Shown here: one piece after another, positions 17,563 to 18,423 of the stretch
How positions within the stretch are numbered: position 1 is the stretch's first letter
Layout of the letters: every line of letters starts with the position of its first letter
Virus record (IMG/VR): IMGVR_UViG_3300023082_000035
Coordinates: 1-24,690 of that record
Source of the DNA: a virus
DNA length: 24,690 bases
Strand: one strand, 5' to 3'
Translations under genes and position numbers: made by a program
Notes under the pieces: model-generated
Told to the model about the DNA's origin: nothing
The model's input: the letters and a program-made list of their open reading frames with translations, nothing else
The model's database searches: none

Positions 17563-18423
17563 TTAATTTATTTCATCGAAAATGTCATTGAACTTGCTTG
17601 ATGCCCATTCAGTGTTTTTGTAATCGTAGTGACCTTTTTTAATTTCTTGCACTTCATCCTCAAATCTTTTTTCGCATAAATATTTTTGTGGGTTGGGAAT
17701 AAATCCGTCCTTGAACGCTTTATCTCTTGCTATCTGTTGTTTCAGTTTTTCGATTATTTGATCTGATATCTGATCGCATCCATCGTGAATCCATTGTTGC
17801 CTTGCTCGATGCTCCCCTTTCTTAACGGGGTAGATGCTCCAAAATACATCGAAACTTGTTTTAGTGTTTGTGGATACCTGTTTCTCATTTGGCATTTGTA
17901 TTTCAGCCATTTGGAAATATGTTTCTGGATATTGGTAATTTGGGTCTATCACTTCTTTCTCCTTTTTATTTAATTTCTTTATATTAATCTTCTTTATATT
18001 ATGTACCGGTTCACCGGTACCCTGCATACCGGTAGACCGGTACCCCACTACCGGTAGGCCGGTACCCTGGGTATTTATTGAACACGGTACCGGTAGACCG
18101 GTATGTTGGTTATTTTCAGAATTATATGATTCTATTTTGAGCGTTGGTTGTACGATATATCTCCTGCTTCCTTTCTGCACTCTAGATAAACAATTGTGCT
18201 TTTCAAAGTACAAAAATGCTTCTATTATCTGTGTTTTTTTCAGGCCAGACCTTTCTGATAATATATCGTTTGATAAAAAACAAGGCATGTTTTTATGCCA
18301 TAACTGAAATATCGCAGAGTAAAATTTGAGCCTCCCAATAGTCATCCCGGGTAGGTCTACGATATGTGATGGAACGAATAAGAAGGTCTCTTTGTAAAGT
18401 TCATTTGTAGCTTCATTGCTCAT
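17563..18423 (-). CDS. O-like replication initiator with internal origin
   Basis: This 286-residue protein begins with a winged-helix-like domain (about residues 15-95: GMTIGRLKFYSAI, then ILSERSGLKKTQIIEAFLYF, the likely recognition helix region), as in phage replication initiators of the O type. Residues 107-141 are a low-complexity linker in which TGLPV or TGEPV recurs; this is the translation of four DNA iterons. A basic AT-coded segment follows (KKINIKKLNKKEKE). The C-terminal domain starts with FDVFWSIYPVKKGEHRARQQ (191-210), a motif common in phage replication proteins. The likely job is to bind the iterons and recruit the P-like protein. The start ATG at 18423 follows AAGGAACTTAATTA; a promoter lies 190 bp upstream. 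Confidence 0.75.
   Translation of the reverse strand: MSNEATNELYKETFLFVPSHIVDLPGMTIGRLKFYSAIFQLWHKNMPCFLSNDILSERSGLKKTQIIEAFLYFEKHNCLSRVQKGSRRYIVQPTLKIESYNSENNQHTGLPVPCSINTQGTGLPVVGYRSTGMQGTGEPVHNIKKINIKKLNKKEKEVIDPNYQYPETYFQMAEIQMPNEKQVSTNTKTSFDVFWSIYPVKKGEHRARQQWIHDGCDQISDQIIEKLKQQIARDKAFKDGFIPNPQKYLCEKRFEDEVQEIKKGHYDYKNTEWASSKFNDIFDEIN
17944..18103 (-). other. Putative replication origin (iterons plus AT-rich segment)
   Basis: Inside the O-like gene, four 16-bp iterons are followed, in the gene's direction, by about 55 bp of AT-rich DNA (about 17945-18003, runs such as ctttatattaatcttcttta). This copies the lambda arrangement, in which four O-binding iterons and an AT-rich unwinding element lie in the middle of the O gene. 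Seen directly: the iterons and the AT bias. Inferred: that this is the working origin. Confidence 0.72.
18004..18103. repeat. Four palindromic iterons, consensus TACCGGTAGACCGGTA
   Basis: Copies lie at 18004-18019 (TACCGGTTCACCGGTA), 18027-18042 (TACCGGTAGACCGGTA), 18049-18064 (TACCGGTAGGCCGGTA) and 18088-18103 (TACCGGTAGACCGGTA). Each is a near-perfect inverted repeat of TACCGGT around two central bases. Start-to-start spacing is 23, 22 and 39 bp, so the first three are on about the same helix face. Copies 2 and 4 are identical. They encode the repeated TGLPV/TGEPV linker in the O-like protein. Confidence 0.95.

Follow-up and report, generated by a model that had tools for sequence, protein, structure and literature searches.

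The 24,690-nt window analyzed here is the whole of a linear IMG/VR record (IMGVR_UViG_3300023082_000035) of a phage from soil, and it raises the question of whether a set of palindromic repeats in the middle of a replication initiator gene, the minus-strand open reading frame 17563-18423, could be a replication origin. We argue below that this array is very probably an iteron-type origin lying within the gene, to which the encoded initiator would bind by its N-terminal winged helix.

Iterons and AT-rich tract in the initiator gene

The first-pass annotation of this DNA had reported four palindromic iterons in the middle of the initiator gene, and we found them at the positions it gave, as 16-nt repeats (Table 1). 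When the record was searched with the pattern ACCGGTNNACCGGT, allowing up to one mismatch, these four sites in this single place were the only matches, and a reversed control gave none. Read in the direction of the gene, successive iteron starts lie at distances of 39, 22, and 23 nt, which gives a core triple with 22+23 spacing plus one upstream copy. The AT-rich stretch that had been described after the iterons is likewise present and adjoins them on the gene-downstream side.

A DNA repeat within a coding region might be a by-product of a repeated peptide, here of TGLPV-type repeats in the linker of the protein, and the iterons had been described as appearing in the protein as TGLPV/TGEPV repeats. 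That description holds for three of the four copies, which share one frame (TGLPV, TGLPV, and TGEPV), but not for the copy at 18027-18042, which as a consequence of the 39, 22, and 23 nt spacing is read in another frame as YRSTGM. The middle copy is also in another frame in most members of the homologue family described below, and the last iteron spacing is 22 or 23 nt in all 26 members compared, never a multiple of three. In a recoding test the protein was held fixed and the codons were redrawn from the gene's own usage, with 5000 recodings per gene. For the window gene the observed similarity of three copies was 42/48, the recodings averaged 28, and none of the 5000 reached the observed value; the outcome was 0/5000 in each of the 22 genes tested. 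The iterons are DNA elements, produced neither by chance nor as a by-product of the protein. The protein-repeat explanation was rejected on both the frame test and the synonymous recoding test, and we regard the probability that it is correct as negligible.

A homologue family with fixed geometry

Searches using a protein query and small alignments gave 25 homologues, mostly IMG/VR contigs, together with a Legionella londiniensis contig (L106) and a contig of a Bacteroidetes metagenome-assembled genome (L105). With the window these make 26 members; one more, L137, was added later by means of the AT-rich motif, for a total of 27. Each of the 26 carries two to four repeats at the corresponding place in the gene, with a core spacing of 22/23 in 18 members and 23/22 in two. 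The first automatic repeat scan gave low-complexity matches in several members, most of which were recovered by a fixed-geometry scan; the spacings of L005 and L125 come from a separate reading of the matches. The iteron sequences vary (TACCG.CGGTA, GTCTA.TAGAC, GTCCG.CGGAC, TCTCG.CGAGA, CGGTT.AACCG, and others), and the exact iteron pattern of the window was found in no other viral contig.

In every member no more than a few bases separate the last iteron from the start of the AT-rich tract, and the tract has a mean AT content of 83%, relative to 63% in the genes. The lysine of the HNxK motif is encoded by AAG in 15 of 16 cases, as compared with 158 of 652 lysine codons elsewhere in the same genes. 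Judged by these sequence comparisons, the DNA of the AT-rich tract is kept beyond the need of the protein across the family. Conservation of DNA repeats beyond protein need, which the annotation had proposed looking for in related phages, is also what the iterons display, since the repeats and the distances between them are retained among family members whose linker proteins differ. The C-terminal domains differ among members, and thus the N-terminus and the origin behave as a module. A literature search yielded no paper describing this initiator family, and tblastn of one member (L086) against cultured phages gave no match.

Covariation of the recognition helix with the iterons

We compared the distances between iteron half-sites with those between the predicted recognition helices (residues 62-75) in Mantel tests. 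The correlation was r = 0.62 (p 0.0002) for the helix; the controls, residues 10-45 and the wing, gave 0.30 and 0.28, respectively. When the closely similar TCTA group was reduced to one representative, the helix gave 0.57. Among the twelve members without a one-residue insertion, the helix gave r = 0.66, whereas residues 10-45 gave −0.01 and the other control 0.17. The individual pairings followed the same pattern: Ser/Thr64-Gln65 occurred with xCCG half-sites in 9/9 proteins and Ala64 with TCTA or TCTC half-sites in 5/5, and L137, which was outside the Mantel tests, fits the pairing of helix and half-site as well. This covariation makes it very likely that the initiator reads the iterons in its own gene.

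The initiator protein and its neighboring helicase loader

In an AlphaFold2 (AF2) model the initiator has an N-terminal winged helix, a low-confidence linker predicted to be disordered, and a C-terminal helical domain (Table 1). The N-terminus of the window protein matched HTH_36 (PF13730) with an E of 3.3e-5 and 24.0 bits, against a curated cutoff of 25, and HTH_36 matches at E up to 1 were obtained for 27/27 family members, the best at 8.7e-8. The O-like family PHROG 678 was matched by eight of the 15 members tested (best 1.9e-29). In the Pfam scan the window protein did not match PF04492 (Phage_rep_O), to which 3/27 members matched weakly (best E 0.037). An hhalign comparison with lambda O, in which the template was a single sequence and power was low, likewise gave no match. 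RepA_N (PF06970) was neither among the Pfam matches of the window protein nor among the 25 families listed for the 27 N-terminal domains. A fold search with the N-terminal domain returned 4pql, a RepA N-terminal domain entry, with Z 10.0 (rmsd 6.8, 91 residues aligned), a score tied with those of Fur-type winged helices (Z 9.4-9.5). RepA N-terminal domain entries stood first or near first when matches were ordered by Z, but generic winged helices tied with them, and fold was not used for membership. A sequence search of solved structures found no initiator. By sequence, the initiator is probably of the HTH_36 type, and membership of the lambda O (PF04492) family is not supported, so that the name "O-like" that it had been given applies to its function and layout, and to its PHROG match, but not to PF04492 membership.

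The product of the next gene matched the lambda-P-type family PF06992 with 90.6 bits, above the curated cutoff of 26. Each testable component of the arrangement likened to lambda ori is found, with an initiator gene, iterons in its linker-coding middle, an AT-rich tract downstream, and a P-like loader next to it.

A candidate origin and its alternatives

We propose that each 16-nt palindrome is bound by the N-terminal winged helix, which probably acts as a dimer and makes contact through its recognition helix, and that an O-some-like complex, assembled on three to four such sites at 22- and 23-nt spacing, would open the adjoining AT-rich tract. The C-terminal domain and the P-like protein would load the host replicative helicase, putting the array to use as an origin, and the origin DNA would be read through as a disordered linker in which any residues imposed by the iteron sequence are tolerated. 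What the sequences show directly are the repeats, their geometry, the DNA-level constraint, the covariation, and the gene neighbors; binding, strand opening, helicase loading, and use as an origin are inferred, with only the covariation as indirect support for the first two.

The same covariation would be expected if the repeats were instead an operator that lets the initiator repress or block the transcription of the gene encoding it and of genes downstream, and the sites do lie inside a transcribed gene. The mid-gene position and the array of three to four copies with fixed phasing, however, fit an origin, as does an AT-rich tract that is under DNA-level constraint and always on the downstream side; moreover, promoter-like matches in the iteron region were no more numerous than expected by chance. 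We therefore consider an operator in place of an origin improbable. Palindromic arrays also act as centromere-like sites, so a partition, recombination, or packaging site might be envisaged. No result here points in that direction; the array covaries with a helix of the replication protein whose gene contains it, and the helicase-loader gene is adjacent, making such a role very improbable indeed.

Several points weigh against the array being an origin, or at least the only one. The palindromes served to fix the half-site registers manually, and shared ancestry is controlled only partly in the covariation tests. A GC-skew check for an origin near 18 kb, which the annotation had suggested, displayed no clear turn and is uninformative on a record that is not complete. 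The early region, which the window record lacks, encodes in virion relatives a different initiator whose gene also contains repeats, and therefore another origin may exist in this phage. Finally, as the C-terminal domains vary, the helicase-loading step need not match in all members of the family.

Other initiator-like genes of HTH type were observed in the early regions of two virion relatives (L128:2682-3392 and L129:2803-3663), with in-gene repeats of their own and near RusA; the L128 repeats read TSDIGG three times with 18-nt spacing. A RusA-like gene is found in the early region in L128 and L129 and at 1189-1554 in the window, between the tail fibre and terminase genes.

Table 1. Positions of the iterons, the initiator gene and its parts, and the surrounding genes in the 24,690-nt window
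Feature	Position	Strand	Sequence or evidence
Iteron 1 (gene direction), outlying copy	18088-18103	.	TACCGGTAGACCGGTA; 39 nt ahead of core triple
Iteron 2, first of 22/23 core triple	18049-18064	.	TACCGGTAGGCCGGTA; one arm mismatch
Iteron 3, middle of core triple	18027-18042	.	TACCGGTAGACCGGTA; different reading frame
Iteron 4, last of core triple	18004-18019	.	TACCGGTTCACCGGTA; adjoins AT-rich tract
AT-rich tract, candidate unwinding element	~17954-18003	.	84% AT over 50 nt; motif CATAATATAAAGAA in gene direction
Initiator gene, O-like, 286 aa	17563..18423	-	PHROG 270 "replication initiation protein" 1.2e-16; PHROG 678 "O-like" 8.6e-5; AF2 model
Predicted winged-helix DNA-binding domain, residues 10-95	18139..18396	-	AF2 pLDDT mostly 82-96; HTH_36 PF13730
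Predicted recognition helix, residues 62-75	18199..18240	-	Helix 63-75 in model; strongest covariation with iteron half-site
Linker-coding part, residues 98-182, containing the entire candidate origin	17878..18132	-	pLDDT mostly <50
C-terminal helical domain, residues 185-263	17635..17871	-	AF2 helices; PHROG 9474 matches residues 158-272
Lambda-P-like helicase loader gene, 220 aa	16887..17549	-	PF06992 1.2e-25; PHROG 109 1.5e-31
Scaffold-like gene, one flank of cassette	18620..19318	-	PHROG 1052 0.0011; weak T7 capsid assembly match; synteny
Major capsid gene, other flank of cassette	15962..16801	-	PF19821 4.4e-42
Conserved leader of major capsid gene, cassette border	16802..16899	-	First bases AGGAGAACTTTAG

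Position of the cassette in the virion operon

The virion had been called T7-like, and its portal, a T7-type head-tail connector (PF12236, 3e-76), agrees with that name, but the capsid belongs to PF19821, the T7-type scaffold match is weak, and the window proteins scanned included no T7 RNA polymerase. Among the virion relatives listed, the scaffold and capsid genes are neighbors, ~150-200 nt apart, whereas in the window they are separated by the O-P cassette. The border between P and the capsid gene falls at AGGAGAACTTTAG, the start of the leader, which provides the last codons and the stop of P. Contig L006, whose capsid is the closest in the set (93% identity), starts at precisely the leader's first base, which may mean that two upstream arrangements coexist. 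One relative, G024, shares the virion of the window (portal 61%, capsid 74%, terminase 64%) and an initiator of the same family with three iterons. There the initiator gene lies past the terminase in the vicinity of recombination-type genes, and the scaffold and capsid genes adjoin each other; by comparison with G024, the cassette of the window is the displaced one. This initiator family was not found in 24 virion relatives, many of whose records are partial.

The origin could be real and its placement nonetheless an assembly chimera, in which the replication cassette of another phage was joined to the virion operon. No capsid-bearing relative examined has the cassette at that place, the window contains a second likely join artefact in the form of a 99-nt exact inverted repeat, and GC is 0.365 in the cassette vs 0.43 in the flanking genes. 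Lower GC is also seen in the early regions of relatives, however, and the border lies at a gene end, with the P frame intact and closed by the recipient leader; moreover, the start of L006 at the first base of the leader is as expected for two natural upstream arrangements. On balance we think a chimera unlikely.

The leader of ~95 nt before the major capsid gene is conserved in the window and L006-L010, in the form AGGAGAACTTTAG ... GACAAGCCCT ... TAGGGGA. The copies of the inverted repeat, at 1-99 and 23473-23571, probably reflect an assembly fold-back at k-mer length. The terminase frame that runs off the left end of the window resumes on the plus strand after 23571, and beside this suspicious join lies a tRNA-like gene whose anticodon was called, oddly, as four bases (23377-23454, minus strand).

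Significance of the module

The mechanism is a known one; what is new is this family, probably of the HTH_36 type, the readable covariation of protein and DNA, and the position between scaffold and capsid genes. A broader interpretation is that these genes form a module family in which DNA-binding domain and origin are locked together, specificity shifts through a readable recognition-helix code, and the out-of-frame 22+23 geometry stays fixed, and that here the module has moved into the virion operon, which would place the origin under the transcription control of structural genes; we consider the case for this whole picture evenly balanced. As one gene holds both initiator and origin, each genome records a protein helix together with its DNA target, and the 27 members, with at least eight half-site types, constitute a data set on specificity change in winged-helix initiators that bears as well on how related phages avoid cross-talk within one cell. 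The fixed out-of-frame spacing indicates that it is DNA geometry, and not protein sequence, that is kept. If the cassette position is true, a replication module can function when placed inside a structural operon, a hard test of the rule of early and late gene order.

Comparison with known origins inside initiator genes

Origins within initiator genes are already known from lambda O, RepA of plasmid pSK41, and the hybrid plasmid pPR9. Lambda O binds its iterons as dimers and opens the AT-rich tract (PMC5043065), and three iterons suffice (Moore 1981, cited in PMC7466680). Lambda ori in gene O, like that in O of Stx phages, shares with the window palindromic iterons in mid-gene, an AT-rich tract directly after them, and a P loader downstream. 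The first codon of iteron 1 is 117 in lambda and 107 in the window; the lambda iterons are 18 nt long with starts 20, 24, and 23 nt apart, vs 16 nt with a 22/23 core, and, unlike lambda, the window has no lambda-type early operon.

The cultured Pseudomonas phage PAJU2 also has adjacent O and P genes and palindromic repeats within O. Its O gene (L139:1057-1866) contains two exact 19-nt copies of GTGCCGAAAACGGCACAAA, 33 nt apart, likely an in-gene origin, as against four copies in the window. The C-terminus of PAJU2 O is 43% identical to that of family member L094, whereas tblastn detected no N-terminal similarity.

In pSK41, a staphylococcal RepA_N plasmid, the Rep boxes lie centrally in rep and are bound by the N-terminal domain, and the origin-encoded central part of RepA is a dispensable linker, as described in excerpts of PMC5703833. 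The window resembles pSK41 in having its candidate origin in the middle of the initiator gene, coding for a linker, but its protein lacks a RepA_N Pfam match, and it has a lambda-P-type loader, of which those excerpts make no mention for pSK41 plasmids. The same excerpts describe the hybrid initiator of pPR9, in which a phage-derived HTH_36 N-terminal domain was swapped together with the origin as a block of ~500 bp. HTH_36 matches were likewise obtained for all 27 N-termini of the family described here; in pPR9, a plasmid of a Gram-positive host, the domain is joined to a pSK41-type C-terminus.
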